NCBI RefSeq assembly: GCF_000820845.2
Contig: NZ_CBXV010000008.1
Location: 914,705 to 978,704 of the forward strand
Length of the DNA: 64,000 nucleotides
DNA from: Pyrinomonas methylaliphatogenes
GTDB taxonomy: Bacteria > Acidobacteriota > Blastocatellia > Pyrinomonadales > Pyrinomonadaceae
Reading direction: 5' to 3'
The notes beneath the pieces are model-generated. The model saw only the letters and a list, made by a program, of their open reading frames with translations. It was not told the origin of the DNA and did not search any database. The position numbers and the translations under genes are program-made. Shown one piece after another: positions 1,385 to 32,702 of the stretch. Each line of letters begins with the position of its first letter. Within the stretch, counting starts at the first letter, position 1.

Positions 1385-4063
<2,679 letters not shown>

Positions 4064-4116
4064 TCGCGTCATGCGCTCCATAGCGTGGCGCGCCTTTGAT
4101 GCGAAGCGAATGAGAA

Positions 4117-4146
4117 AGGGGCGCTTAATTAGCGCCCCTCTCTTTA
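4117..4146 (+). terminator. Intrinsic terminator after alaS
   Basis: A perfect 9-bp stem (4117-4125 with 4131-4139, AGGGGCGCT/AGCGCCCCT) closes a 5-nt loop and is followed on the plus strand by a pyrimidine stretch, CTCTTTAT. It sits between the convergent alaS and the minus-strand peptidoglycan-binding gene, so it may act in both directions. Confidence 0.7.
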
Positions 4147-4165
4147 TCGAAGTGATAACCGCGAC

Positions 4166-4564
4166 TCAGTTCCCTTTCTGACGCTCCGTGAGCGCGATGT
4201 TCATCTTCTCAAGCGTCTCACGGTTGAGGGTTCCGGTAACGCGCAGCCCTTCAGCTTGCTGATACTTTCTCAGGGCCGCGCGCGTCGCCGGATCGAGCCG
4301 ACCGGTCGCCTCTCCCGTGTAAAAGCCGCGTTGCTTGAGGATCTCTTGTGCCTGTTTGATCTGGTCTCGGGTAGCGCGGAATGGGGCGCTACGTCTTCTC
4401 GTCGTCGCGGCGTTTGCGTTCTTGTTCGCATTCGCGTTCTTGTTCGCGTTGGCGTTCTTATTGGCGTTCGCGTTCTGCGCTTGCCCAATCAGAGGCGTCG
4501 TTCGCGCCCAAGCAACTCCGGATAGGACTAAAGACAGCGCTAATGCGAGCGTGAGGTTACGCAT
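4166..4564 (-). CDS. Secreted peptidoglycan-binding domain protein with Asn/Ala/Lys repeats
   Basis: 132 residues. A signal peptide (residues 1-20, ending AWA) is followed by a low-complexity stretch built from NANANK units (about residues 30-52), an RRR patch, and then a PG_binding_1-type domain. The domain reads IKQAQEILKQRGFYTGEATGRLDPATRAALRKYQ and ends near residue 125. Such domains bind cell-wall peptidoglycan, so a periplasmic or surface location is expected; no catalytic domain is attached. The ribosome-binding site is an ideal AGGAGG, 5 nt before the ATG, and a promoter-like pair lies at 4620-4647. The function beyond wall binding is unknown. Confidence 0.85.
   Translation of the reverse strand: MRNLTLALALSLVLSGVAWARTTPLIGQAQNANANKNANANKNANANKNANAATTRRRSAPFRATRDQIKQAQEILKQRGFYTGEATGRLDPATRAALRKYQQAEGLRVTGTLNRETLEKMNIALTERQKGN
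4411..4477 (-). repeat. Tandem repeat encoding the NANANK linker
   Basis: Inside the peptidoglycan-binding gene, GCGTTCTTGTTCGC-like 18-bp units recur (read here on the plus strand). They encode about three NANANK repeats plus partial copies. The repeat is likely to vary in copy number between strains. Confidence 0.75.
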
Positions 4565-4930
4565 AAGCTCCTCCTAACCTCCTTCTCGAGGGATTCTCAT
4601 TTTGAAGAGATCATCACGATTTTTAGCCAACGCCGTGAGCAAGTCAAGGGAAGATCCAGCGGCCCAAGCGCGGTCTGGTGAGCGATGATCCGCCATCCTT
4701 CGGCGCGCTGGAGATCACAGCTTCTTCCGTTCTTCGGATAAGGCGCAGCTTTCAGCGTCTAACTTTGAGATCGCAATCGCCCTGGGCGAAGAGAATTCTC
4801 GGGGGTCGCTCGTGAATCTTACACGCCGCAGGGATTGCGACTACAGGGAGAATCGACAACTGTAAGCATCTACGCATCCTGCATTGAGGAGAGAGGCGAT
4901 GATTAAGCGAAGCGCTCGCGCGCAAAATTT
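4565..4930. other. Intergenic region, 366 bp, no convincing gene
   Basis: It contains the upstream region of the minus-strand peptidoglycan-binding gene and, at its right end, the terminator of the M48 protease gene. An ATG at 4899 on the plus strand has a GAGGAG-like site before it, but the frame only runs antisense into the protease gene, so it is not called. Confidence 0.6.
4620..4647 (-). promoter_or_regulatory. Candidate promoter of the peptidoglycan-binding gene
   Basis: On the minus strand TTGACT (4647-4642) is separated by 16 nt from TAAAAA (4625-4620). This places a start of transcription about 50 nt before the ATG at 4564. Confidence 0.45.
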
Positions 4931-19628: not shown

Positions 19629-20567
19629 ATGGATAGAAGGATTGAACAAGCGACAGATGCGCTGATCGAGTCTTATACGGGCGGCGGGATAAAGATCCAT
19701 CACCTGGACCGACAACCGCTCCCTTCGCATGAAGCGATCATCCGCATGATCGATGTCATGCACGAGCTCGTCTTCCCGGGCTACGCTGGCGCGCAAGGGC
19801 TAGCCGGTGGAAGTTTACGCCGCCACGTCGAAGCGCGCATCATGTGGCTCTACGAAGCGCTGACCGAACAGATCAGCCGCGCCATCAATCACGGGCAGAA
19901 GATCGGCGCGCACTGCGAAGTGACCGAACGCGAAGCCGCTGATTGCGCCGCAGAATTCTTGGCTCAGCTTCCGCGCGTGCGCGAAGTGCTCGCGACCGAT
20001 GTGCAGGCGGCATATGACGGCGATCCGGCGGCGACCTGCCTTGACGAGATCATCTTCAGTTATCCGGGCGTCTATGCGGTAATGGTCTACCGATTGGCGC
20101 ACGAACTCTACAAGCTGCGCGTGCCGCTCATCCCGCGCATCATGACCGAACACGCGCACCATCGCACCGGCATAGACATCCATCCGGGAACGAGGATCGG
20201 TTCGCGCTTCTTCATCGACCACGGCACGGGCGTGGTCATCGGCGGCACGGCGATCATCGGCAACAACGTCAAGCTCTATCAAGGCGTGACGCTCGGCGCC
20301 TTCTCCTTCGATAAAGACGCCAACGGACAATTGATCCGCAACACGAAACGCCATCCGACCATCGAAGACGATGTGGTGATCTACGCGGGAGCGACGATCT
20401 TGGGCGGCGACACGGTGATCGGACGCGGCAGCGTCATCGGCGGCAATGTCTGGTTGACCCATTCTGTGCCGCCGGGAACGCGCGTTCTGCAAGAAGCGCC
20501 GAAGCTGCGCATCATCACGCCGGAAGGGACGAAGGAAGAGGAGATCGAATCGGTGGCGAAGAAGTAA
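19629..20567 (+). CDS. cysE: Serine O-acetyltransferase (EpsC/CysE type)
   Basis: 312 residues. It makes O-acetylserine from serine and acetyl-CoA, the entry step of cysteine synthesis. A helical N-terminal domain (to about residue 175) precedes the left-handed hexapeptide-repeat domain with GIDIHPGTRIGSRFFIDHGTG (active-site His and Asp), GVTLGAFSFDKDANGQ and ATILGGDTVIGRGSVIGGN. The long N-terminal domain and FDKDANGQ insert match the EpsC subfamily. Its last codons are duplicated 68 bp downstream (see repeat). Confidence 0.94.
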   Translation: MDRRIEQATDALIESYTGGGIKIHHLDRQPLPSHEAIIRMIDVMHELVFPGYAGAQGLAGGSLRRHVEARIMWLYEALTEQISRAINHGQKIGAHCEVTEREAADCAAEFLAQLPRVREVLATDVQAAYDGDPAATCLDEIIFSYPGVYAVMVYRLAHELYKLRVPLIPRIMTEHAHHRTGIDIHPGTRIGSRFFIDHGTGVVIGGTAIIGNNVKLYQGVTLGAFSFDKDANGQLIRNTKRHPTIEDDVVIYAGATILGGDTVIGRGSVIGGNVWLTHSVPPGTRVLQEAPKLRIITPEGTKEEEIESVAKK

Positions 20568-20633
20568 GAGACCCTGCATCACGTCTTCAGAGTTTCGCAT
20601 AGAACGCCCCGATCGAATCGGTGGCGAAGAAGT
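20543..20633 (+). repeat. 23-bp direct repeat: end of cysE and its downstream copy
   Basis: The 23 bp at 20543-20565 inside the 3' end of cysE (starting GATCGAATCGGTGGC) recur exactly at 20611-20633 in the intergenic region before the hydrogenase island. The distance is 68 bp. Confidence 0.85.
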
Positions 20634-20643
20634 TAAGATGCGC

Positions 20644-20680
20644 GATCGTCACACTCCTCTGAGGTGGCGGACTAACGATC
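20644..20680 (+). promoter_or_regulatory. Imperfect palindrome upstream of hhyS1
   Basis: GATCGT (20644-20649) and ACGATC (20675-20680) enclose a nested CCTC/GAGG hairpin. The element ends 16 nt before the first hydrogenase gene. It may be an operator or an RNA hairpin; no promoter boxes are clear nearby. Confidence 0.35.
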
Positions 20681-20696
20681 AGCTAAAAACCGCACA

Positions 20697-21722
20697 ATGG
20701 CCGAAAGCGCTGATGAGATCGTCGTGCTTTGGATCACCGCCGGGCTTGGGTGCGATGGCGAGACCATCGCGCTGACCGGCGCGACGCAGCCGAGCCTCGA
20801 AGAGTTGATTCTGGGCGGGCTGCCAGGCATCCCGCGCCTCGTCCTGCACAACCCGCTTCTCGCCTACGAAGTGGGCGAAGAGTTCCTCGCGCCTTTCCAT
20901 CGCGCCGCGCGCGGCGAAATAGACCGGTTCATCCTCGTCATCGAAGGCTCCATCCCGGACGAGACGAACAAGCCGGAAGGTTACTGGGCCGCTTTCGGCG
21001 TGGACCAGCAAACCGGGCAACCGATCACCACGTGCGAATGGATCGACCGGCTGGCACCAAAAGCATGGGCCGTGGTCGCGGTCGGCACGTGCGCCGCCTA
21101 CGGCGGCATCCATGCGATGGAAGGCAATCCAACGGGCTGCATGGGATTAGCTGATTATCTCGGGTGGGATTGGCGCTCGCGCGCCGGCATCCCGATCGTC
21201 AACGTGCCCGGATGCCCGACCTTGCCCGATAACCTGACCGAGACGCTCCTTTATCTGTTGCGCCAAGCGGCGGGGCTGGCGCCGATGATCCCGCTCGACG
21301 ATCAACTGCGCCCGACGTGGCTCTTCGAGCAAACGGCGCACGAAGGATGCAATCGCGGCGGATACTACGAACAGGCGGAGTTCGGCGAAGAGTACGGCTC
21401 GCCTAAATGCATCGTCAAACTGGGTTGCTGGGGGCCGGTGGTCCAGTGCAATGTCGGCCGGCGAAGTTGGCTGGGCGGCGTTGGCGGTTGCGCCAACGTC
21501 GGCGGCATCTGCATCGGCTGCACGATGCCGAGCTTTCCTGACAAGTTCATGCCGTTCATGAATCAACCGCCCGGTTCGTTGCTTTCGTCGCACGCGGTAG
21601 CGACGTATGGCCGGGCCGTGCACGCGCTGCGGCGTTTCACGCAGGCTTCGCTCAACAAGGAACCTAGCTGGCGACAGAAAAAGCCAGTTCAAGCGGCTGG
21701 ATCGGATTCGAGAAATCGCTGA
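20697..21722 (+). CDS. [NiFe]-hydrogenase small subunit, group 1h type, first copy (no adjacent large subunit)
   Basis: 341 residues. It has the iron-sulfur architecture of high-affinity hydrogenase small subunits. The N-terminal ligand region is GLGCDGE (Cys19 to Glu22), then come GTCAAYGG, NVPGCP, HEGC, KCIVKLGCWGP, and the pair CANVGGICIGC. No Tat signal is present, as in group 1h enzymes. In the second copy the residue three after the first Cys is Asp, which replaces Cys as a proximal-cluster ligand in this group; here it is Glu. The gene is followed after 9 nt by a histidine kinase, not by a large subunit. It could be an alternative electron-transfer subunit for the downstream large subunit or part of a signalling complex; both are inference. 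Confidence 0.9.
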   Translation: MAESADEIVVLWITAGLGCDGETIALTGATQPSLEELILGGLPGIPRLVLHNPLLAYEVGEEFLAPFHRAARGEIDRFILVIEGSIPDETNKPEGYWAAFGVDQQTGQPITTCEWIDRLAPKAWAVVAVGTCAAYGGIHAMEGNPTGCMGLADYLGWDWRSRAGIPIVNVPGCPTLPDNLTETLLYLLRQAAGLAPMIPLDDQLRPTWLFEQTAHEGCNRGGYYEQAEFGEEYGSPKCIVKLGCWGPVVQCNVGRRSWLGGVGGCANVGGICIGCTMPSFPDKFMPFMNQPPGSLLSSHAVATYGRAVHALRRFTQASLNKEPSWRQKKPVQAAGSDSRNR

Positions 21723-21731
21723 CCGACGGAA

Positions 21732-23546
21732 ATGAACCGCATGGAAGTGGATCAATCGTGGGGGCAGAAGGCGGAGGATGCGCTCGGGTTGGCGAGCGCA
21801 TCGGAGGCCGAAAAGCTCCTCGTCATGCTCGCGGCCACCTTCTTCCCGTTCTGTTCGGATTCGGCGAACGATATTCAGTGCGCGGCAGAGATGCCTGATA
21901 CGACGACGCTCTACCGCACGCTCGTCGAGCAGATCCCGGCCATCCTCTTCACCGCATCGCTCGAAGGTGGGATCAGTGAAGCTTACGTCAGCCCGCAGAT
22001 CGAACAACTGCTCGGCTTCACGCAAGAAGAATGGTTGAACGATCCAGTGCGTTGGTATCAGCAGATCCACTCGGATGACAAAGCCCGCTGGAGCATGGAC
22101 GCGGCGCAGATGCTGCTCACGGGAGAGCCGCTGCGCGCCGATTACCGCGTGATCGCGCGCGATGGGCGCGTCGTCTGGTTCCATTGCGAGGTCAAGATGG
22201 TGCGCCGCACAGATGGGCGTCCGTGGTTCATTCACGGAGCGGCGTTCGACATTACGGAACTGAAACGGGCCGAAGAAGCTTTGCGCCGCGCAGCGGACGA
22301 ACTTGAAGCGCGAGTCGAAGAGCGCACGGCAGAGCTTGCGCGCGTCAACGCGCAGTTGCGTTCGGAGATCGCCGAGCGCAAGCGCATCGAGGAAGAACTT
22401 CGCCGCGCGCGCGACGAACTCGAAATCCACGTCGAGCAGCGCACCGTTGAACTGGTCAAAGCGAACGAGGCGCTGCTGCGCGAAATCGGCGAACGTCGCC
22501 GCACCGAAGACGCGCTGCGCAAAAGCGAAGGGACCTTGCGCGCGTTGTTCGATTGCGCTCCCGATGCGATCATCGTCATAGATCAACGAGGGTACATCCT
22601 CCAACTGAACGCGCAAGCTGAGAAGATTTTTCAGTATGGGCGCGATGAGATGCAGAATCAATCGATCGAAGTGCTGCTCCCGGAAGTAGACTGGACCAGT
22701 TGGTGCGATCGCGCATTTCACCTTGGCGAATTTGAGTCATGCGGTCAGCGCAAAGATGGGGGGTTGTTCCCCGTCGATGTCCGCTTGAGTCCGACGGAGA
22801 CGAAAGAAGGGCGCTTGGTGATCGCCGTCATTCGCGACATCACAACGCGCAAACAGTCCGAACGCGAACTGCGCGAGTACGCCTCGCGCTTGAAAACGCT
22901 CTCTCGCCGGTTAATGGAAGTGCAGGAGGTCGAGCGCCGGCGCATCGCGCGCGAGCTTCACGACGAAATAGGGCAGACGCTGACCGGCCTGAAGCTGACT
23001 TTGGAGATGGGAGCGCGACTGCCGCGCGAAAAACCTCAAGAAGTATTCGGTCAAGCGCTGGAGATGGTCAACGGACTGATGGCGACGACGCGCAAAATCT
23101 CTTTGGATCTGCGTCCGGGCGTGCTCGACGACCTAGGACTTCTTCCCGCCCTGATCTGGCAGATCGAACACTACACGGCGCAGACGCGCGTGCGCGTCGA
23201 GTTCAAGCATCACGGGCTCGAGGGTCGCCGTCTCCCGCCAGAGGTCGAAACGGCGGCCTACCGCATCGTTCAAGAGGCTTTGACCAACATCGCGCGCCAT
23301 GCGCAAGTGGATGAAGCTGTGGTGCAAGTTTTGGCCGACGATCAGACGATCTTGATCAACGTCGAAGATCGCGGCGTAGGTTTCGATCCTGAAGTCGTCT
23401 TTGCGACGAACGAGACGAGCGGGCTGGCCGGCATGCGCGAACGCGCCGTGTTGCTCGGCGGAAAACTGACGGTCGAATCACGGCCCGGCGGCGGCGCTCG
23501 GTTGACGGCGATTTTGAAGACCGGAAGGAACGAGGTCGCCAGCTAA
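21732..23546 (+). CDS. PAS-domain sensor histidine kinase (HisKA_3, NarX/DegS-type)
   Basis: 604 residues, with no membrane segment, so probably cytoplasmic. A short N-terminal segment holds Cys at 41 and 50. A PAS domain follows (about 58-180, ending DITELKRAEEAL), then a long Arg/Glu-rich coiled coil (about 180-270). A second PAS domain (about 272-385) contains ALFDCAPDAIIVID. The HisKA_3 dimerisation helix carries the phosphoacceptor His410 in RRIARELHDEIGQTL. An HATPase domain shows AYRIVQEALTNIARHA, NVEDRGVGFD and GLAGMRERA. It starts 9 nt after hhyS1 and is followed by a LuxR/NarL-type regulator, its likely partner. The position inside the hydrogenase island suggests control of the hydrogenase genes by redox, oxygen or H2-linked signals; the signal is unknown. 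Confidence 0.93.
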   Translation: MNRMEVDQSWGQKAEDALGLASASEAEKLLVMLAATFFPFCSDSANDIQCAAEMPDTTTLYRTLVEQIPAILFTASLEGGISEAYVSPQIEQLLGFTQEEWLNDPVRWYQQIHSDDKARWSMDAAQMLLTGEPLRADYRVIARDGRVVWFHCEVKMVRRTDGRPWFIHGAAFDITELKRAEEALRRAADELEARVEERTAELARVNAQLRSEIAERKRIEEELRRARDELEIHVEQRTVELVKANEALLREIGERRRTEDALRKSEGTLRALFDCAPDAIIVIDQRGYILQLNAQAEKIFQYGRDEMQNQSIEVLLPEVDWTSWCDRAFHLGEFESCGQRKDGGLFPVDVRLSPTETKEGRLVIAVIRDITTRKQSERELREYASRLKTLSRRLMEVQEVERRRIARELHDEIGQTLTGLKLTLEMGARLPREKPQEVFGQALEMVNGLMATTRKISLDLRPGVLDDLGLLPALIWQIEHYTAQTRVRVEFKHHGLEGRRLPPEVETAAYRIVQEALTNIARHAQVDEAVVQVLADDQTILINVEDRGVGFDPEVVFATNETSGLAGMRERAVLLGGKLTVESRPGGGARLTAILKTGRNEVAS

Positions 23547-23589
23547 ATTGAATCGAAAGCGTTCGGCAGTTTGAGAAGGTTCGTCGGCG

Positions 23590-24240
23590 ATGGTCACGAT
23601 CGTACTGGCAGATGATCATCACATCGTCCGTCAAGGGGTCCGCGCGTTGCTCGAAGCCGAACCGGACTTCGAAGTCGTCGCGGAAACGGGCGATGGGTTG
23701 GAAACGCTTCAAACCCTCGAGCGGTTGAAGCCCAACGTGCTCGTGCTCGATCTGATGATGCCGGGGCTCAACGGGCTCGAGGTCGTGCGCCGCGCGAGCA
23801 GATTGTCGCCGCACACGCGCACGGTGATCCTTTCGATGTATGCCGATGAAGCTTACGTGCTCGAAGCATTGAGAAACGGCGCCGCCGGGTACGTGCTCAA
23901 GGATTCGAGCGCGACCGATCTGGTGAAGGCCATCCGCGAAGCGGCCGCTGGGCGGCGCTACTTGAGCCCGCCGCTCTCCGATCGCGCAATCGAAGCTTAT
24001 CGCGAGAAGGCTGCCGCCACGGCCGTCGATCGGTACGAGACGTTGACCGCGCGCGAACGCGAAGTGCTCCACTTGGCGGCGGAAGGTTACACCAACGCCG
24101 AAATAGCCGCGCGTTTAGGCATCAGCCAGCGCACGGCTGAAACGCACCGCGCGCACCTCATGCACAAGTTGGGGTTGCACACGCAAGCCGACTTGATCCG
24201 CTACGCGCTGCGGCGCGGCATCATCCCGATGGAAGACTGA
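23590..24240 (+). CDS. NarL/LuxR-family response regulator
   Basis: 216 residues. The receiver domain has the acidic pair Asp8/Asp9, phosphoacceptor Asp54 in VLVLDLMMPG, the SMYADEAYV switch region and Lys104 in AGYVLKDSS. The C-terminal LuxR helix-turn-helix (about 148-210) has LTAREREVLHLAAEGYTNAEIAARLGIS and RTAETHRAHLM. It is a DNA-binding output protein paired with the kinase 43 nt upstream. A tandem AAATACGT motif before hhyS2 is one possible target. Confidence 0.95.
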   Translation: MVTIVLADDHHIVRQGVRALLEAEPDFEVVAETGDGLETLQTLERLKPNVLVLDLMMPGLNGLEVVRRASRLSPHTRTVILSMYADEAYVLEALRNGAAGYVLKDSSATDLVKAIREAAAGRRYLSPPLSDRAIEAYREKAAATAVDRYETLTAREREVLHLAAEGYTNAEIAARLGISQRTAETHRAHLMHKLGLHTQADLIRYALRRGIIPMED

Positions 24241-24440
24241 CCGGCAAGTGTGGGCGGAAGATCGCCCGGGCCAACCACAAGGTGGGATGTCTCTTCGCAA
24301 TCTAGCACCGGAGCATCTGCGTGCGGTTCAAACTGTCCTCATCGAAACGGATCTCACTTCCCTTGATCCCTAAGACGATGAGAAAGCATCGTTGATCGTC
24401 GGCGCGCCCTTTTCCGTGAAAGTTCCCCTCGGAAACTGGC

Positions 24441-24469
24441 TTGAGGGCGAGGGCGGCGGAGTTTAAAAT
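24441..24469 (+). promoter_or_regulatory. Candidate promoter directly before the membrane-protein gene
   Basis: TTGAGG (24441-24446), a 17-nt spacer and TAAAAT (24464-24469). Transcription would begin at about 24476, only one or two bases before the ATG at 24478, so the transcript may be leaderless. Confidence 0.4.
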
Positions 24470-24477
24470 CGGGCGGG

Positions 24478-25389
24478 ATGGAAGAGTCCGAAGCCGTCGT
24501 GCGATCCAAATTCATCGGCCCACTGTCAAAGGGCCTGCGCGCCACGGCGTCGCTCTACGATGGGATTGAAAGTTCGTTCGAGGATGCGCGCACGCAACGA
24601 AGCTTCGCCGTCTTTCTCGTCTTCATCTTCGCGTTCTCTCTCGTCTTGATCGAAAGCAACAGACAAGGACTGCTGCCTGAAGAACTGCGAGGGCGCATCT
24701 CCACCAATCATTTCGGAGCAGTGGCACTGGCCTTCACTTTGCTGTTGATCTTCGAAGTGTTGTCACTCGTCTTCGCTTTGGCCCGTTCAGTGGCCGATTC
24801 GATAGGCAAGCAGTTCGAGCTTCTCTCGTTGGTGCTTTTGCGCAAAGCTTTCTTCGAGGTGTCACATTTCGGCGAGCCCGTCGATTGGAAGACCGCTGCG
24901 CCCGCCGTGCCGGTCGTCATCGCCGACATGGCCGGCGCGCTGCTCATCTTCGCGGCGACGAGCTTCTACTACCGGTTGCAACGACATCGCCGGATCACCT
25001 CGGACGAAGCGGATCAAGCGGGGTTCGTCGCGGCGAAAAAAGCGGTGGCGCTGCTCCTGTTGGGCGCTTTCATTTTGCTCGGAGCGCGAGAGATGCTGCT
25101 CATCTGGTTGAGCGCTCCTGATCGCGGCGCGCAACGCTTCTTCGAGATCTTCTACACGGTGCTCATCTTCAGCGATGTGCTGTTGGTGCTCATCGCCTTG
25201 TGCTACAGTACGCGCTATCCGGTTGTCTTTCGCAACTCCGGGTTCGCGGCGGCAACCGTCATGATGAGACTGGCGCTGACCGCTCCGCGCTACATCAACG
25301 TGCTGCTCGGTTTGGGAGCGGTGCTCTTCTCCATCGCGCTGACGCTCGCCTACAACTCCTACATGGCCAAACTGGCCGAGCGACAGTGA
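24478..25389 (+). CDS. Multi-pass membrane protein of unknown function in the hydrogenase island
   Basis: 303 residues with about six to seven hydrophobic segments. They start at approximately residues 43 (FAVFLVFIFAFSLVLI), 80 (GAVALAFTLLLIFEVLSLVF), 145, 190 (AVALLLLGAFILLGA), 225 (FSDVLLVLIALC), 260 and 280. No family is recognised. Charged loops such as RHRRITSDEADQ lie between the helices. It lies between the two-component system and the hydrogenase structural genes. A membrane anchor, quinone-linked electron acceptor or ion-coupled partner for the cytosolic hydrogenase is possible, but there is no haem or iron-sulfur motif to support electron transfer. Confidence 0.75.
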   Translation: MEESEAVVRSKFIGPLSKGLRATASLYDGIESSFEDARTQRSFAVFLVFIFAFSLVLIESNRQGLLPEELRGRISTNHFGAVALAFTLLLIFEVLSLVFALARSVADSIGKQFELLSLVLLRKAFFEVSHFGEPVDWKTAAPAVPVVIADMAGALLIFAATSFYYRLQRHRRITSDEADQAGFVAAKKAVALLLLGAFILLGAREMLLIWLSAPDRGAQRFFEIFYTVLIFSDVLLVLIALCYSTRYPVVFRNSGFAAATVMMRLALTAPRYINVLLGLGAVLFSIALTLAYNSYMAKLAERQ

Positions 25390-25437
25390 ATCCCAACGGG
25401 TCTCTTTCCTGTGGTTCGCGGCGCGTCTCAGGCTGAA

Positions 25438-25468
25438 AAATACGTGCGACGCGCGCCGATAAATACGT
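25438..25468 (+). promoter_or_regulatory. Repeated AAATACGT motif upstream of hhyS2
   Basis: AAATACGT occurs at 25438-25445 and again at 25461-25468, 23 bp apart (about two helical turns), in the 229-bp gap before hhyS2. It could be a paired binding site, for example for the neighbouring NarL-type regulator; this is inference. Confidence 0.35.
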
Positions 25469-25536
25469 AGGTTTACGAATAGACACGGGCGCCGAAGCGC
25501 GAGAGAATCCGGCCCGTAACGAAAGCGCGATCCGGC

Positions 25537-25567
25537 GGGGTTTGGTTGCTTGCTGCAACAAATCCCC
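25537..25567 (+). promoter_or_regulatory. Hairpin in the leader of hhyS2
   Basis: Left arm 25537-25549 (GGGGTTTGGTTGC) pairs with right arm 25555-25567 (GCAACAAATCCCC) except for two mismatches, around a 5-nt loop. It ends 51 nt before the ATG. It has no U-tract, so it is more likely an mRNA stability or processing element than a terminator. Confidence 0.4.
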
Positions 25568-25618
25568 ATCCGCGCCTTTCGGCGCCGCATATTTCCAAGA
25601 CCGAGGAGACCAAGCGCA

Positions 25619-26683
25619 ATGGCAGCCGAAGAGATCCCCTACGGACGAAGAACGCAACATGCGCCCGCCGTCAAAGAAGTGCACATCGTCTGGATCACGG
25701 CCGGCTTGAGCTGCGATGGCGATTCCGTCGCTGTCACCGGCGCAAGCCAACCGAGCATCGAAGATGTGCTCCTCGGCGCGATCCCCGGGCTTCCCAAAGT
25801 CCACCTACACAATCCCGTGCTCGCCTACGAGGTCGGCGAGGATTTCATGCAGTACTACTACAAGGCCGAGCGCGGCGAACTCGATCCGTTCGTCCTCGTC
25901 GTCGAAGGCTCCATCCCCAACGAAGAGATCAAGCGTGAAGGCTACTGGGCAGCGCTCGGAACCGATCCGGCCACTGGGCAACCGATCACGACGAGCGAGT
26001 GGATCAGTCGGCTGGCGCCCAAGGCTTTCGCCGTCGTCGGCATCGGCACGTGCGCAACCTACGGCGGCATCCACGCGATGGCGGGCAACCCGACCGGCTG
26101 CATGGGGCTGGCCGACTATCTGGGCTGGAACTGGCGCTCGCGCGCCGGCATCCCGATCGTCAACGTGCCCGGCTGTCCGGTGCAACCGGATAACTTCATG
26201 GAGACGGTCCTTTACCTGCTCTATCAAGCGGCGGGGCTGGCGCCGATGATCCCGCTCGACGATCAACTGCGCCCAAAGTGGCTTTTCGGCAGCACGGTGC
26301 ATGAAGGCTGCGACCGCGCCGGCTACTACGAGCAAGGCGATTTCGCCAACGAGTACGGCTCGCCTAAATGCATCGTCAAACTGGGTTGCTGGGGGCCGGT
26401 CGTCAACTGCAATGTGCCGAAGCGCGGTTGGATGGCTGGCATCGGTGGCTGTCCCAACGTCGGCGGCATCTGCATCGGCTGCACGATGCCGGGCTTTCCT
26501 GACAAATTCATGCCGTTCATGGATGAACCGCCGGGAGCGCGCGCTTCGACTGGGGCTTCCGCCGTTTACGGCAGAGTGATCCGCAGCTTGCGCAGCATCA
26601 CCAACGCGACCGTCAACAAAGAACCGAAGTGGCGGCGACGCGGAACCGAGTTGACGACCGGTTACCGGCCAAGGACCTACTGA
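25619..26683 (+). CDS. hhyS: [NiFe]-hydrogenase small subunit, group 1h (high-affinity)
   Basis: 354 residues. Iron-sulfur subunit passing electrons from the Ni-Fe site of the adjacent large subunit. The N-terminal ligand region is GLSCDGDS with Cys32 and Asp35, the Cys-x-x-Asp arrangement known for oxygen-tolerant group 1h enzymes. Then come GTCATYGG, NVPGCP, HEGC, KCIVKLGCWGP and CPNVGGICIGC for the proximal, medial and distal clusters. No Tat signal. The start ATG 25619 has GAGGAG 10 nt upstream; an in-frame opening at 25550 lacks one. It is followed 17 nt later by hhyL. Closely similar to hhyS1 throughout the core, which points to gene duplication. Confidence 0.96.
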   Translation: MAAEEIPYGRRTQHAPAVKEVHIVWITAGLSCDGDSVAVTGASQPSIEDVLLGAIPGLPKVHLHNPVLAYEVGEDFMQYYYKAERGELDPFVLVVEGSIPNEEIKREGYWAALGTDPATGQPITTSEWISRLAPKAFAVVGIGTCATYGGIHAMAGNPTGCMGLADYLGWNWRSRAGIPIVNVPGCPVQPDNFMETVLYLLYQAAGLAPMIPLDDQLRPKWLFGSTVHEGCDRAGYYEQGDFANEYGSPKCIVKLGCWGPVVNCNVPKRGWMAGIGGCPNVGGICIGCTMPGFPDKFMPFMDEPPGARASTGASAVYGRVIRSLRSITNATVNKEPKWRRRGTELTTGYRPRTY

Positions 26684-26700
26684 AGAAAGGAGCCGCAACG

Positions 26701-28500
26701 ATGAGCACGATGACGAGAACGAAACCCGAAGCGCCAGCCGCGACGCGCAATCTGGTCGAGATGAACTGGGATCCGATCACGCGCATCGTCGGGAGTTTGG
26801 GCATCTACACCAAGATCGATTTCAAAAACCGCGAAGTCGCCGAATGCTACAGCACCTCCTCGATCTTTCGCGGCTACAGCATCTTCATGAAGGGCAAAGA
26901 TCCGCGCGATGCGCACTTCATCACGAGTCGCATCTGCGGTATCTGCGGCGACAATCACGCCACCTGCGCGATCTACGCGCAGAACATGGCTTTCGGCGTG
27001 CGCCCGCCTGCGCTCGGCGAATGGATCATCAATCTGGGCGAAGCCGCCGAGTACATGTTCGATCACAACATCTATCAGGATAATTTGGTCGGCGTCGATT
27101 TCTGCGAGCAGATGGTCAAAGAGACCAACCCGAGCGTGTGGGAGAAGGCGCAGAAGACCGAAGCGCCGAACGCGGCGCTGCATGGCTACCGCCGGATCAG
27201 CGACATCATGACGGCGCTCAATCCGTTCACCGGCGAGTTCTATCGCGAAGCGCTGCTCATGAGCCGTCTGACGCGCGAGATGTTCTGTTTGATGGAAGGG
27301 CGACACGTGCATCCTTCGACGCTCTATCCGGGCGGCGTCGGGACGGTGCCGACGATTCAGCTCTTCACCGACTATCTGGTCCGGTTGATGAAGTACGTCG
27401 AGTTCATGAAGAAGGTCGTCCCGATGCACGACGATCTGTTCGATTTCTTCTACGAAGCGTTGCCGGGCTACGAGCGTGTCGGTCAGCGGCGCGTGCTGCT
27501 CGGTTGCTGGGGATCGTTCAACAACCCGGACGTGTGCGATTACACCTACGAGCGCATGACCGAGTGGGGCAACGCGATGTATGTGACGCCGGGAGTCGTC
27601 GTCGATGGTCAACTGGTGACGACCGATCTAGTGAAGATCAATCTCGGCATTCGCATCCTGCTCGGCAGTTCCTACTACGAGGATTGGGAGAACGCCGAGA
27701 CTTTCGTCCAGCGCGATCCGCTCGGCAACCCCGTCGATAAACGCCATCCGTGGAACCAGACGACCATTCCGAAGCCGCAGAAGCGCGATTTTCAAGACAA
27801 ATACACGTGGGTCATGTCGCCGCGCTGGTACGACGAGCGGACGGGCGACTATTTAGCGCTCGACACAGGTGGTGGACCGATCGCCCGTTTCTGGGCGACG
27901 GCGCTCGCCGGCAAAGTCGATATCGGCTACATCAAAGCGACTGGGCAGAGCGTGAAGATCTACTTGCCGAAGACGGCGACCAAGCCCGAAGTCGAGTTCG
28001 AATGGAAGATCCCGAAGTGGTCCAACGCCATCGAACGGGATCGAGCGCGCACATACTTTCAAGCTTACGCGGCGGCGGCGGCGCTCTACTTTTTGGAGAA
28101 GGTGATGGCCGAGGTTCATGCCGGAAGGACGAAGACATGGTCCGAGTTCAAGGTGCCGGATGAAGCCATCGGCTGCGGATTCCACGAAGCCGTGCGCGGT
28201 GTGCTTTCGCATCATGTGGTGATCCGCGACGGCAAGATCGCCAACTATCATCCATATCCGCCGACGCCGTGGAACGCCAGCCCGCGCGACATCTACGGCA
28301 CGCCCGGCCCATACGAGGATGCCGTGCAGAACACGCCCATCTTCGAAGAGAACGGGCCGGACAAGTTCAAAGGCATCGACATCATGCGCGCCGTCCGCAG
28401 CTTCGATCCGTGCTTGCCGTGCGGCGTGCACATGTATCTGGGCGGCGGTAAGGTGCTCGAAGTGCGTCATTCACCCGTCTTCGGGCCGTTTGGGAAGTGA
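26701..28500 (+). CDS. hhyL: [NiFe]-hydrogenase large subunit, group 1h (high-affinity)
   Basis: 599 residues. It holds the Ni-Fe(CN)2CO active site that splits H2. The N-terminal L1 motif is RICGICGDNHATC (Cys79 and Cys82, His86) and the C-terminal L2 motif is DPCLPCGVH (Cys571, Cys574, His577). A 22-residue tail after His577 is expected to be removed by the maturation protease encoded at 32190. The start ATG 26701 has AAAGGAG just upstream. The set of accessory genes and absence of Tat export in the partner support assignment to group 1h, the class that can oxidise H2 at atmospheric levels (established for actinobacteria and Pyrinomonas). Confidence 0.97.
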   Translation: MSTMTRTKPEAPAATRNLVEMNWDPITRIVGSLGIYTKIDFKNREVAECYSTSSIFRGYSIFMKGKDPRDAHFITSRICGICGDNHATCAIYAQNMAFGVRPPALGEWIINLGEAAEYMFDHNIYQDNLVGVDFCEQMVKETNPSVWEKAQKTEAPNAALHGYRRISDIMTALNPFTGEFYREALLMSRLTREMFCLMEGRHVHPSTLYPGGVGTVPTIQLFTDYLVRLMKYVEFMKKVVPMHDDLFDFFYEALPGYERVGQRRVLLGCWGSFNNPDVCDYTYERMTEWGNAMYVTPGVVVDGQLVTTDLVKINLGIRILLGSSYYEDWENAETFVQRDPLGNPVDKRHPWNQTTIPKPQKRDFQDKYTWVMSPRWYDERTGDYLALDTGGGPIARFWATALAGKVDIGYIKATGQSVKIYLPKTATKPEVEFEWKIPKWSNAIERDRARTYFQAYAAAAALYFLEKVMAEVHAGRTKTWSEFKVPDEAIGCGFHEAVRGVLSHHVVIRDGKIANYHPYPPTPWNASPRDIYGTPGPYEDAVQNTPIFEENGPDKFKGIDIMRAVRSFDPCLPCGVHMYLGGGKVLEVRHSPVFGPFGK

Positions 28501-28502
28501 TC

Positions 28503-29360
28503 ATGGAACAGCAGATGCAAGCTTGCGCCCGGCGGATCGAAGAGTTGGTCCAGAGGATCGAGAGTCTCACAGACGCACGCGCGCGCGACGTCGCCGTCGA
28601 ACTCGTGCAAGAGCTTATGCGCATGCACGGAGCGGCGCTTGAGCGGCTGCTCGAGATCGTCTGGGGGCGAAATGAACCAGAACTCATCGAAGCTTTCGCG
28701 CGCGATGATCTCGTCGGTCCGCTGCTTCTGCTTTACGACCTTCACCCGCTGGACCAAGAGACGCGCGTCCGCGAGGCGATCGAGCGCGTGCGGCCATACT
28801 TGCGTTCGCATGGCGGCGATGTCGAACTCCTGCGGATCAGCGATGGTGTGGTTCACTTGAGACTTCGCGGCAGTTGCCACGGCTGCGCTTCGTCGGCGCA
28901 GACGCTGCGCTTGGCGATCGAAGCGGCGATCTACGAAGCGGCGCCGGAGATCGCCGCGCTCGAAGTCGAAGGCGTCGCGCAACCCGCCACATCTTTTGTG
29001 CCGCTCGAAAGCGGGCGGGGCAACGCCAATGGGAAACGGAAGACTCACGGCGTTTGGGAAGAGGTGGAAGCGCCGCTCTCGCTTGCGCCGGGTAGCGCGC
29101 GCATCATCGAAGCGCGCGGACGGCGCATCCTCTTCTGCCGTCTGGACGATCGCTTCTTCGCCTATGAAGACCGATGCCCAGCTTGCGGCGGCGCGCTCGA
29201 TGCCGCGCGTTTCGAAGACGTGATGCTCGTGTGCCCTGTGTGTGGTCGACGCTACGATGTGGTTCGCGCCGGACGTGCGAGCGACGGCGCGAACCCACAC
29301 CTCGAACCGCTGCCGCTGTTGCTCGAACATGGGCGGGCAAAGATAGCGCTGCCAGCGTGA
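28503..29360 (+). CDS. NifU C-terminal-like / Rieske-like fusion protein
   Basis: 285 residues. A helical N-terminal part (1-90) leads into a NifU-type domain with YLRSHGGDVELL and the cluster-binding pair GSCHGCAS (Cys125, Cys128). After a linker (about 165-180) comes a Rieske-ferredoxin-like domain (about 185-275). There the usual CPH and CPWH motifs are replaced by CPAC (Cys225, Cys228) and CPVCGRRYDV (Cys244, Cys247), giving four Cys. NifU-Rieske-type proteins occur beside group 1h hydrogenases and may be the electron acceptor or help cluster assembly. The gene starts 2 nt after the hhyL stop, so coupling is likely. Whether the second domain carries [2Fe-2S], rubredoxin-like iron or zinc cannot be told from sequence. 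Confidence 0.85.
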   Translation: MEQQMQACARRIEELVQRIESLTDARARDVAVELVQELMRMHGAALERLLEIVWGRNEPELIEAFARDDLVGPLLLLYDLHPLDQETRVREAIERVRPYLRSHGGDVELLRISDGVVHLRLRGSCHGCASSAQTLRLAIEAAIYEAAPEIAALEVEGVAQPATSFVPLESGRGNANGKRKTHGVWEEVEAPLSLAPGSARIIEARGRRILFCRLDDRFFAYEDRCPACGGALDAARFEDVMLVCPVCGRRYDVVRAGRASDGANPHLEPLPLLLEHGRAKIALPA

Positions 29361-29373
29361 TCGTCTGACTTGG

Positions 29374-30051
29374 GTGGGCGTGCACTTTGCGAAAGAAGCG
29401 AGGCATTTAAGATTGAACGTGGTTTTATCGAGCAATAACGAGCCTTTGGTTGCGCTCCGCCGTTTGATTGAAAGGCGCGACGCACGCGGCGATGAGACAT
29501 GCGAACTTTGCGGTAGCGTTCTCACCGCGCAACATTCGCACCTGATCGAGATGGCAACCGGTAGGTTGCTTTGCGCCTGTGACGTTTGCGCGACATCGTT
29601 CGGAAACGACGGCAAGGCTCGATACCGGCGCGTACCGCAGCGCGTCCGCTTTCTGCCCGATCTCGATCTGACCGACGAGCAGTGGGACGATCTGATGATC
29701 CCGATCGGACTGGCCTTCTTCTTCCGAAGCACGCCGCAGAATCGGGTGGTGGCCTTTTATCCCAGCCCAGCTGGTCCGACCGAATCTTTGCTCCCGCTCG
29801 AAGCGTGGGATTCGATCGTCGCAGCCAATCCGGTGCTCCGGAGTTTGGAGCCGGATGTCGAAGCGTTGTTGGTCAATCGTCTGCGTGAGGCCGAGTATTA
29901 CATCGCTCCCATCGATGAATGCTACCGTCTCGTCGGGCTGATCCGTCTTCATTGGCGAGGGCTTGGCGGCGGAGCGCGCGTGTGGGACGAGATCGCGGCC
30001 TTCTTCGATGGATTGCGAAAGCGTTCGCGCGAGGGAGAGGCAGATGCCTGA
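29374..30051 (+). CDS. DUF5947-family hydrogenase-associated protein
   Basis: Up to 225 residues. Contains CELCGSVL (about residue 43) and a second knuckle CACDVCATSF (about residue 68), which could bind zinc or iron. A conserved RYRRVP-x-RVRFLPD stretch and the ending RVWDEIAAFFD follow. The family is found in actinobacterial-type hydrogenase clusters; its function is unknown. The frame opens at GTG 29374, but TTG or GTG codons around 29413-29419, after a GAAGCGAGG site, are equally possible starts. It overlaps the next gene by 8 nt. Confidence 0.8.
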   Translation: MGVHFAKEARHLRLNVVLSSNNEPLVALRRLIERRDARGDETCELCGSVLTAQHSHLIEMATGRLLCACDVCATSFGNDGKARYRRVPQRVRFLPDLDLTDEQWDDLMIPIGLAFFFRSTPQNRVVAFYPSPAGPTESLLPLEAWDSIVAANPVLRSLEPDVEALLVNRLREAEYYIAPIDECYRLVGLIRLHWRGLGGGARVWDEIAAFFDGLRKRSREGEADA

Positions 30052-30754
30052 GCTGATCTTCAGCGTGCAGAAGGCGGAAGCCGTCAAGTTCGCCATCGCG
30101 CCGCAGCTCGCTTTCACCTTGCGCATCGAGAACATGGCGCGCGAAGAACCGGTCCAGACGGTCGCGCTCCGTTGCCAGATCATGATCGAACCGGCGCGCC
30201 GCCGCTACGCTGTGCGGGAGAAGGAGCCGCTCGCGGAGTTGTTCGGCGAACCGGAGCGTTGGGCGCAGACCGTGCGCCGCATGCTTTGGACGCACGCGCA
30301 CGTGATCGTCCCGCCGTTCGTCGGCGAAACGAGCGTCGAGCTGTCGGTGCCGTGCACGTTCGATTTCAACGTCGCGGCGACGAAATATTTCGCTGCGCTC
30401 GAGGATGGCGAAGTGCCGCTCGATCTGCTGTTCAGCGGGACGGTCTTCTACCGGAACGAAGACGGGGCCTTGCAGGTGGCGCAGATCCCTTGGGAGAAAG
30501 AGGCGCGCTTTCTTCTGCCCGTGCGCATATGGCGCGAGATGATGGAGGCTTACTACCCGAACAGCGCATGGGTCTGTTTGGGCCGTGACGTGTTCGACCG
30601 ATTGCGGCGCTACAAGGCTCGGCGCGGACTGGCGACTTGGGAGCAGACCATCGAATCGCTCCTTGCGCAAACGGAAGAAGAGGACGGGGTGAAAGAATCC
30701 TTCGTGACGGAAGAGGCGCGCGCCGAAGACGGCAACGGCGAAGCGGTTCACTGA
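30044..30754 (+). CDS. DUF6084-family hydrogenase-associated protein
   Basis: 236 residues without a signal peptide or membrane segment. LIFSVQKAEAVKFAIAP opens the family domain, followed by LRCQIMIEPARRRY, SVELSVPCTFDFNVAATKYF and NSAWVCLGRDVFDRL. The last 30 residues are acidic and probably flexible. Known only from group 1h hydrogenase loci; the role is unknown, perhaps assembly or stability. The ATG at 30044 has GGGAGAGG upstream and overlaps the stop of the DUF5947 gene by 8 nt, implying translational coupling. Confidence 0.82.
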   Translation: MPELIFSVQKAEAVKFAIAPQLAFTLRIENMAREEPVQTVALRCQIMIEPARRRYAVREKEPLAELFGEPERWAQTVRRMLWTHAHVIVPPFVGETSVELSVPCTFDFNVAATKYFAALEDGEVPLDLLFSGTVFYRNEDGALQVAQIPWEKEARFLLPVRIWREMMEAYYPNSAWVCLGRDVFDRLRRYKARRGLATWEQTIESLLAQTEEEDGVKESFVTEEARAEDGNGEAVH

Positions 30755-31867: not shown

Positions 31868-32202
31868 ACGAATGGGAGTGGGAACTGATCGAAGCAAAGA
31901 CCCCGCTCGCCAGCCTATGCGTGCGGGGCGTCGCAGTCCGGCCCGGCGATCGCGTGCGTCTGTGGCCGCAGGGCAACGCGGATATCTTCGATCTAGCGCT
32001 CGCCGGAAAAACGGCCACCATCGAAGCGATTGAACAAGACTACGATGGTCGGGTGTTGGTCGCTGTCGTCATCGACGATGATCCGGGGCGAGATCTAGGA
32101 CTGCTTCGACAGCCGGGCCACCGCTTCTTCTTCTCGCCGGAGGAGATCGAACCGGTGGAGCCTCGCACTCCGCTGCCAGGGGGAGGGAAATGCGAATCTT
32201 GA
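31864..32202 (+). CDS. Small hydrogenase-associated protein of unknown function
   Basis: 112 residues. A beta-rich N-terminal part (GVAVRPGDRVRLWPQGNADIFDLALAGKTATIEAI) resembles a small barrel. It is followed by VAVVIDDDPGRDLGLLRQPGHRFFFSPEEIE. It overlaps the preceding gene by ATGA and the following protease gene by 13 nt, which places it firmly in the operon. No family function is known to me; a regulator or chaperone of assembly is conceivable. Confidence 0.72.
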   Translation: MNEWEWELIEAKTPLASLCVRGVAVRPGDRVRLWPQGNADIFDLALAGKTATIEAIEQDYDGRVLVAVVIDDDPGRDLGLLRQPGHRFFFSPEEIEPVEPRTPLPGGGKCES

Positions 32203-32702
32203 TCGCCGGCATCGGCAACATCTTTCTCGGCGACGATGGCTTCGGTTGCGAGGTGATCCGCCGATTGGTCCAACGCGAACTTCCTGCGGGCGTGCGCGTC
32301 GTGGATTTCGGGATTCGCGGCTTCGATCTGGCCTATGCGTTGATGGAGCGCAACGATGCGGTGATCCTCGTCGATGCGGTCCCGCGCGGCGAAGAGCCCG
32401 GCACGCTTTACACGATCCAACCCGATCTGGACCAGTTGGGCGAGGTGAACATCGAAACGCACGGGATGAATCCCGTCAAAGCGCTCTCGCTCGCCAGCGC
32501 GATGGGCGAAAAACCAGCGCGCATCCTGCTGGTTGGATGCGAACCGGCTTGCTTCGACGGCATGGGGCTGAGCCCAGCGGTGGAAGCGGCGGCGAACGAG
32601 GCGGTGAGTATGATCGAGGAGTTGATCGCGGAGTTCGCCCGCGAGAGCGCACACGAGGGCGAACGGATGGAAGATCGCCGAAGCGGGAAAGGAGGAAGAT
32701 GA
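32190..32702 (+). CDS. Hydrogenase maturation protease (HyaD/HybD family)
   Basis: 170 residues. It removes the C-terminal tail of the large subunit after nickel insertion. The family start GIGNIFLGDDGFG is present; the nickel-ligand Glu of HybD is represented by an Asp in the DDG triplet. The other two nickel-ligand positions are visible as VDAVPRG (Asp) and ETHGMNP (His). The C-terminal 30 residues are charged and not conserved. It overlaps the gene before (13 nt) and the gene after (4 nt). Confidence 0.93.
   Translation: MRILIAGIGNIFLGDDGFGCEVIRRLVQRELPAGVRVVDFGIRGFDLAYALMERNDAVILVDAVPRGEEPGTLYTIQPDLDQLGEVNIETHGMNPVKALSLASAMGEKPARILLVGCEPACFDGMGLSPAVEAAANEAVSMIEELIAEFARESAHEGERMEDRRSGKGGR

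Follow-up and report, generated by a model that had tools for sequence, protein, structure and literature searches.

The locus and the question it raises

The window analysed here, a stretch of 64,000 nucleotides (nt) from Pyrinomonas methylaliphatogenes (contig NZ_CBXV010000008.1, positions 914,705 to 978,704), raises the question of what a second hydrogenase small subunit is for when a single large subunit is at hand. Two small subunits of a group 1h [NiFe] hydrogenase are encoded, HhyS2, which is followed by the large subunit, HhyL, and HhyS1, which is followed by a PAS-domain histidine kinase and a NarL-type response regulator. From the comparison with related genomes, this second subunit, carried by soil bacteria that subsist on trace hydrogen from the air, probably provides the input to a hydrogen or redox sensor and is not a mere spare for the enzyme. 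The genes on which the argument turns are listed below, with lengths in amino acids (aa).

20697..21722, + strand: HhyS1, group 1h small subunit of the putative sensor type, 341 aa (ATG at 20697; reading frame, Pfam, tree)
21732..23546, + strand: PAS histidine kinase, 604 aa, with PAS_3, a second PAS, HisKA_3 and HATPase_c (ATG at 21732; reading frame, Pfam)
21867..22301, + strand: PAS segment, kinase residues 46-190, with the same genome distribution as HhyS1 (PAS_3 match at residues 84-170)
23590..24240, + strand: NarL-type response regulator, 216 aa, receiver and GerE (reading frame, Pfam)
25619..26683, + strand: HhyS2, enzyme-type small subunit, 354 aa (ATG at 25619; reading frame, Pfam, tree)
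26701..28500, + strand: HhyL, large subunit, 599 aa (ATG at 26701; reading frame, Pfam)

A preliminary description of this DNA, made from the sequence alone, had reported a single large subunit against two group 1h small subunits, a count that the genome search confirmed. HhyS1 and HhyS2 are 68% identical and carry an identical pair of Pfam domains, and they are the only two small subunits of this type in the genome (3,788,560 bases, 99.5% complete), where HhyL alone passes the PF00374 cut-off for a large subunit; a weak match on contig 2 stays below it (20.7 bits against 25.8). The 68% identity and the retained cluster cysteines exclude a chance match. Moreover, HhyS1 shows both group 1h small-subunit traits tested, namely the sequence lineage and the cluster-ligand cysteines, and its best match among solved structures is HofK of 5aa5, with 568 bits, the next-best reaching 161 bits and Hydrogenase-2 (7utd/7uur) 133 bits. 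The kinase described as following the first copy does begin 9 nt past the stop of hhyS1, and the reading frames and Pfam also bear out the regulator behind it; the pair fits the layout tested for a PAS histidine kinase with a NarL-type regulator (PAS, HisKA_3 and HATPase_c; receiver and GerE).

HhyS1 as an old, constrained paralogue

Small subunits were collected from a survey of the order (119 genomes), a survey of the phylum (396 genomes from a larger group) and named genomes (75 loci; the best 80 of 164 relatives). From 142 matches above 52% identity, loci fetched twice, sequences below 300 residues and identical rows were removed, leaving 114 rows and two outgroup rows. The resulting tree splits an HhyS1 type (50 rows) from an enzyme type (63 rows), while L111, a PAS-linked sequence from Planctomycetaceae, falls between them and was excluded from both counts as intermediate. 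Support is often weak for branches within the HhyS1 side, and the tree has no fixed root. Since many loci are metagenome bins, statements about phyla concern the labels of the records: by these, HhyS1 rows are mostly Acidobacteriota, with one from Verrucomicrobiota, one from Myxococcota, two from Planctomycetota and one labelled as a betaproteobacterium (L118). The enzyme types of Proteobacteria and Chloroflexota cluster with HhyS2, so that either the split between HhyS1 and the enzyme type predates the enzyme type of those phyla or genes have been transferred. The published extra copies of E. aggregans (L099) and KBS 83 (L107) fall within the HhyS1 clade, and the HhyS1 of G102, a genome of the same genus, is 99.7% identical to that of the window.

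As regards the labels, L118 and L153, from a bin labelled Betaproteobacteria, hold HhyS1 and HhyS2 of acidobacterial type, and very similar HhyS1 sequences occur in L092 and L094 under Verrucomicrobia and Deltaproteobacteria labels. Both cases may reflect either binning error or gene transfer.

The conservation within the clade is that of a protein under constraint. The ten conserved cysteines of the enzyme type are retained across the 50 HhyS1 rows, with the exception of one cysteine in one row, and of the 203 positions that are nearly invariant in the enzyme type, 159 carry the same residue in 90% or more of the HhyS1 rows. In addition, the clade has fixed residues of its own (numbered as in the HhyS1 of the window): W124 is found in 49/50 HhyS1 rows, where 57/63 enzyme-type rows have Leu, and G254 also in 49/50, where the enzyme type has Pro or Thr. 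C169 is present in 43/50 HhyS1 rows as opposed to Asn in all 63 enzyme-type rows, the HhyS1 of the window having Asn as well. This extra cysteine lies four residues before a conserved cluster cysteine, and might change the proximal cluster. Group 1h is said to use one Asp as a ligand of that cluster, according to a passage of PMC7174314; at position 22, presumed from the alignment to be this ligand, 38 of the 50 HhyS1 rows have Asp and 12, that of the window among them, have Glu; all 63 enzyme-type rows have Asp. The ratio of nonsynonymous to synonymous differences (pN/pS), a simple count between two Pyrinomonas genomes, was 0.025 for HhyS1, 0 for HhyS2, 0.03 for HhyL and 0.15 for the kinase.

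A pseudogene reading of HhyS1 was rejected on the basis of the clade, the residue conservation and the pN/pS. Degeneration of HhyS1, which the preliminary description had regarded as fatal to its proposals, was looked for and not found, the pN/pS of 0.025 being the relevant figure.

The PAS domain linked to HhyS1

A feature that characterizes the clade is a protein matching the PAS region of the window kinase, which lies within 1.2 kb behind HhyS1 on the same strand in 48/50 rows, or 48/49 testable ones (47 by an automatic rule, and L038 added from its gene map). The two rows in which it does not directly follow are L118, at a contig edge, and L141, where a large subunit and an HhyE-like gene intervene; in L048 a frame of 150 residues stands between HhyS1 and the PAS protein. 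By comparison, 0/62 enzyme-type rows are directly followed by such a PAS, hhyL being the next gene in 62/63 and the remaining one, L047, ending with its contig. In one enzyme-type locus, L040, the upstream genes include a regulator and a kinase bearing this PAS, and its genome, G044, has HhyS1 with another such kinase elsewhere.

What stands behind the PAS varies. A Pfam scan of ten neighbours chosen for variety found PAS_3 in all ten, followed by HisKA_3 in three, by HisKA in three, by HisKA with a receiver in the same chain in two and by no kinase domain in two (L092 and L141); L111 and L141 have an additional PAS ahead of the shared one. Of 820 pairs of loci, 751 are more similar in the PAS than in the C-terminal 215 residues of the protein.

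The distribution among genomes is in line with this linkage. In the phylum sample, where up to ten candidates were scored per genome, the PAS segment was found at 64% identity or more in 10/10 HhyS1 genomes and 0/5 genomes with the enzyme type only, the next PAS matches being at most 47% (one of them, of 42%, in the enzyme-only G325). In the order sample it was found at 66% or more in 10/10 HhyS1 genomes and 0/6 enzyme-type-only ones, three of these six being partial or broken. Both samples together give 18/18 against 0/11 (these totals because G000 and G044 occur in both), counts in which related genomes are not independent. In G054, contigs C41 and C312 hold fragments of small subunits and an incomplete match to the PAS (57% over 79 residues), which may be what is left of a decaying HhyS1-PAS system. 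The structure predicted for the PAS region had a mean predicted local distance difference test (pLDDT) score of 84 and a predicted template modelling (pTM) score of 0.67, and its comparison with the PDB matched many PAS and LOV domains, with no cofactor assignable.

Kinds of HhyS1 loci and a diverged large subunit

HhyS1 loci differ in the hydrogenase genes around them. An enzyme-type small subunit lies downstream in 27/50 rows, as in the window, and in seven a large subunit is present with no HhyS2 in the stretch. For three rows, the 7 kb on each side hold no large subunit, and for one the same applies to the 7 kb downstream and the 6 kb upstream, so that the arrangement proposed for a survey in the preliminary description, hhyS1 beside the kinase with no hhyL nearby, does exist (4/50 loci). 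The other 12 rows are on stretches too short to classify. At the level of genomes, all 18 HhyS1 genomes carry a group 1h large subunit, G026 with a fragment only.

In three genomes, G029, G034 and G007 (loci L043, L048 and L049), a diverged large subunit, here called L', and a protease-like gene are followed by HhyS1, the kinase, the regulator, a hydrophobic protein and then a second hydrogenase. L' is 70-72% identical to HhyL, retains the Ni-Fe motifs and forms one clade (support 100/100); it alters 37-40 of the 330 positions that are invariant in 47 HhyL sequences, and HhyL sequences left out one at a time alter at most 9 of 339. L' is read as a large subunit dedicated to the sensor, and might also be part of a second enzyme. 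Consistent co-occurrence with a second large subunit, which the preliminary description had held to speak against its proposals, was seen in part only: L' occurs in 3/18 HhyS1 genomes, and beside an ordinary HhyL in G029 only, G007 and G034 carrying L' alone. The large subunit of the second hydrogenase, tested for G029/L043 only, matched Hydrogenase-2 of 7utd at 900 bits, which we take to be Huc of M. smegmatis. In G029 and G034 a gene for a GH123 glycoside hydrolase (L043:4857-8138, L048:5175-8165), absent from L049, separates the protease-like gene from HhyS1, and in G029 a DUF1641 protein, HypA and a CobW/HypB-type protein stand ahead of the second hydrogenase. A further small PAS-domain protein is encoded immediately upstream of L' at L043:667-1680.

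In L092 and L094, HhyS1, the PAS protein and a large subunit follow in succession, and the stretch gives no match to HhyE, DUF5947 or DUF6084. The large subunit of L092 (5256-7025) is interrupted by a stop and the frame of its PAS protein (3506-4684) stops before any kinase domain, breaks due to a frameshift, an assembly error or decay.

Accessory genes and neighbouring sequence

The remaining features of the locus are as follows.

24478..25389, + strand: conserved 303-aa protein, hydrophobic by eye (reading frame)
28503..29360, + strand: protein with a NifU domain and a Rieske-like part, in the HhyE position (named by comparison with PMC6883350)
29374..30051, + strand: DUF5947 accessory protein (Pfam)
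29963..30754, + strand: DUF6084 accessory protein (Pfam)
32190..32702, + strand: maturation-protease-like protein, labelled HyaD by eye from the sequence, not by family search

The enzyme-operon layout tested, hhyS directly before hhyL together with HhyE, DUF5947 and DUF6084, is that of HhyS2 and not that of HhyS1. HhyE, DUF5947 and DUF6084 were not found in the L' loci. Among the 18 HhyS1 genomes, DUF5947 is missing from G007, G034 and the fragmented G102, and DUF6084 from G007, G034 and G026 (71% complete), G102 having a fragment only; both are without trace only in G007 and G034. DUF6084 is also missing from the enzyme-type-only G024 and G302. A search for HhyE in six genomes gave a relative, 28-33% identical, in each of G029, G034 and G007, some few kb past the second hydrogenase; the enzyme operon of G029 also contains the usual HhyE, and a short NifU match of 44% lies elsewhere in G007.

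The 303-aa protein gave no match in Pfam and NCBIfam searches, and relatives about 49-50% identical to it also stand after the regulator in the three L' loci (L043:11561-12457, L048:12458-13369, L049:6775-7716). About 22 nt of the end of a cysE-like gene (20544-20565) recur, by eye, 68 nt downstream at 20612-20633, in the gap before hhyS1. Two regions were searched separately for repeats: none was found within 20568-20760, and within 24241-25700 there were six short direct families and one inverted pair, with no evident regulator site. Scans for promoter-like and terminator-like signals gave counts near or below the means of shuffled sequence (3 vs 1.3; 4 vs 7.0).

Proposed mechanism and competing explanations

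The explanation that we favour, and consider reasonably likely from the sequence evidence, is that HhyS1 forms with HhyL, or with L', a sensory [NiFe] hydrogenase derived from the group 1h lineage, which signals to the PAS kinase. It is built on what is read in the sequences themselves, that is, the paralogue clade with its constraint and its retained ligands, the association with a single PAS domain behind which the other parts vary, and the L' loci. A hydrogenase small subunit cannot split H2 alone and needs a large subunit; HhyS1 would therefore bind a group 1h large subunit, the shared HhyL here and the dedicated L' in some relatives. The redox state arising from H2 oxidation would pass via the three iron-sulfur clusters of HhyS1 to the PAS of the kinase, which would bind HhyS1 and set the phosphorylation of the NarL-type regulator. 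This, in turn, would adjust, in one direction or the other, the transcription of hhySL and its accessory genes, or of a Huc-like operon where the cassette adjoins one; it is their position that suggests hhySL as the controlled promoter here and the Huc-like operon in the L' genomes.

With one hhyL per genome, the pairing of HhyS1 with HhyL implies a shared catalytic subunit, and we know of no sensory hydrogenase that shares its own. A further proposal, which we find evenly poised, is that sensory [NiFe] hydrogenases had a second origin in the atmospheric, group 1h lineage. In most genomes the sensor would then borrow the catalytic subunit from the enzyme under its control through an exchange of small subunits, HhyL-HhyS2 being the enzyme and HhyL-HhyS1 the sensor. 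If it holds, a single large subunit would be contested between signal and catalysis, and group 1h, with its high affinity, would permit H2 sensing near the atmospheric level. If HhyS1 does serve as a sensor subunit, H2 or redox state acts directly on hhy control in Acidobacteria, and perhaps on huc-like control in three genomes. It would mean a second origin of sensory [NiFe] hydrogenases, and a role for the duplicate hhyS, reported without one in the parts of PMC8027828 that deal with it.

Several observations weigh against this explanation. The 27 rows with an enzyme-type small subunit downstream place HhyS1 and its neighbours where a plain operon regulator would also sit. L141, which belongs to the HhyS1 clade, is enzyme-like, with hhyL and an HhyE-like gene directly after HhyS1, and no kinase domain is seen in its PAS protein, which comes two genes later; L141 is the only row of the clade with an adjacent hhyL, and has no DUF5947 or DUF6084 match in the locus. 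Hallmarks of the group 2b sensors, namely the small-subunit lineage and a large subunit that lacks the C-terminal extension, are absent. The missing accessory genes are suggestive only and no proof of a sensor, since some bearers of group 1h lack HhyE: passages of PMC6883350 report that HhyE of M. smegmatis is needed for H2 consumption by Hhy, and that 9.5% of the hydrogenase-positive species surveyed are without HucE and HhyE. Finally, a mirror-tree comparison (HhyS1, PAS and kinase C-terminus in 41 loci, HhyS2 in 23) gave no specific HhyS1-PAS signal: the partial correlation of HhyS1 and PAS given HhyS2 was 0.27, reached in 31 of 500 permutations, that of HhyS2 and PAS given HhyS1 was 0.69, and the distances did not set co-evolution of HhyS1 and PAS apart from shared history.

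The preliminary description had offered two readings, of which signalling has gained strong comparative support and an alternative electron-transfer partner is now disfavoured. According to the latter, HhyS1 would be a second electron-transfer subunit for HhyL, the two isoenzymes feeding different acceptors and the two-component system merely regulating the operon. The retained cluster cysteines and the 159 of 203 shared near-invariant positions are what such a subunit would have, and two hhyS for one hhyL in this genome, the 27 rows upstream of an enzyme operon and the enzyme-like L141 also agree with it. Nevertheless, we think it unlikely, because the PAS tracks HhyS1, not HhyS2 or HhyL (18/18 against 0/11 genomes), HhyS1-PAS pairs lie away from hhyL in 4/50 rows and the L' loci are without HhyE, DUF5947 and DUF6084. 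Signalling, by contrast, is favoured by the PAS linkage, the matching genome distribution, the variable kinase parts, the hhyL-free loci and the three loci with a dedicated L' and without the usual accessory genes.

Signalling need not involve a large subunit at all: HhyS1 could act towards the PAS kinase as an iron-sulfur sensor of redox or oxygen, linked to hydrogenase through its targets only. This is slightly less probable again. It would account for the four HhyS1-PAS loci without a large subunit within 7 kb on the readable sides, and for the lack of a second one in this genome; it leaves unexplained the group 1h large subunit in 18/18 HhyS1 genomes, L' beside HhyS1 in three of them, the large subunit after HhyS1 and the PAS protein in L092 and L094, and the retention of most enzyme-type invariant positions. 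As for a recent or decaying duplicate that stands beside the kinase by accident, of which the broken or partial copies in some bins (L106, L155 and the fragments of G054) might be taken as signs, we consider it most improbable in view of the separate clade with its own fixed residues, the pN/pS of 0.025 and the PAS linkage in 48/49 testable cases.

Comparison with known hydrogenases

The duplicate hhyS as such is not new and is already described in PMC8027828, according to whose main text the extra hhyS of KBS 83 and E. aggregans sits 3,600 bp ahead of the structural genes, which is also where P. methylaliphatogenes has it, and its expression was detected in KBS 83 and not in E. aggregans. The terms "histidine kinase", "two-component" and "regulat" are absent from that main text, and "histidine kinase" also from PMC5900883. 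A literature search, which did not cover SI-2 of PMC8027828 and the 2015 Pyrinomonas paper, found no paper linking the extra hhyS to a kinase.

The closest known parallels are the group 2b sensors, HoxBC-HoxJ-HoxA of Cupriavidus necator and HupUV-HupT-HupR, in which a small subunit likewise neighbours a response regulator and a histidine kinase. The kinase HoxJ contains a PAS domain, and the window kinase resembles it in being adjacent and in having an N-terminal PAS region. Passages of PMC10073562, PMC5665086 and PMC12319191 extend the likeness to the three iron-sulfur clusters and to the location of sensor genes near the genes of other hydrogenases, and those of PMC10073562 and PMC5665086 report that the HoxBC hydrogenase complexes with the kinase HoxJ. 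HhyS1 differs from group 2b in belonging to the group 1h lineage (568 bits with HofK), as judged from matches to solved structures. Also, HhyL and the three L' bear about 20 residues after the DPCxPCGVH motif, whereas a large subunit without a C-terminal extension is a hallmark of group 2b. The regulator is NarL-type, unlike those of HoxBC and HupUV, and mostly there is no dedicated large subunit. In group 2b, a Gln replaces a His conserved in other [NiFe] hydrogenases, according to a passage of PMC5665086. The His of the first motif, His86, is present in HhyL, the three L', L094 and L141, and the invariant His 517 is Gln in two of the three L'. The His replaced in group 2b may be that of the first motif, in which case these large subunits do not share the replacement. 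Membership of group 2b is not claimed, as the small-subunit lineage and the C-terminal extension are not those of that group.

With the group 1h enzyme, HhySL or HofK-HofG (5aa5), HhyS1 shares the fold family and the cluster cysteines, and it differs in its own clade, its own fixed residues and the PAS protein that takes the place of hhyL next to it. A hydrogenase-type protein beside a signalling enzyme is also found in the putative sensors of HydDB, 2c (linked to a diguanylate cyclase) and [FeFe] C1-C3, which belong to other lineages; in the relevant passages of PMC5037454, groups 2b, 2c and C1-C3 are classed as sensing and group 1h as H2 scavenging. What is new here, as judged from sequence, is the HhyS1 paralogue clade and its link to one PAS domain.

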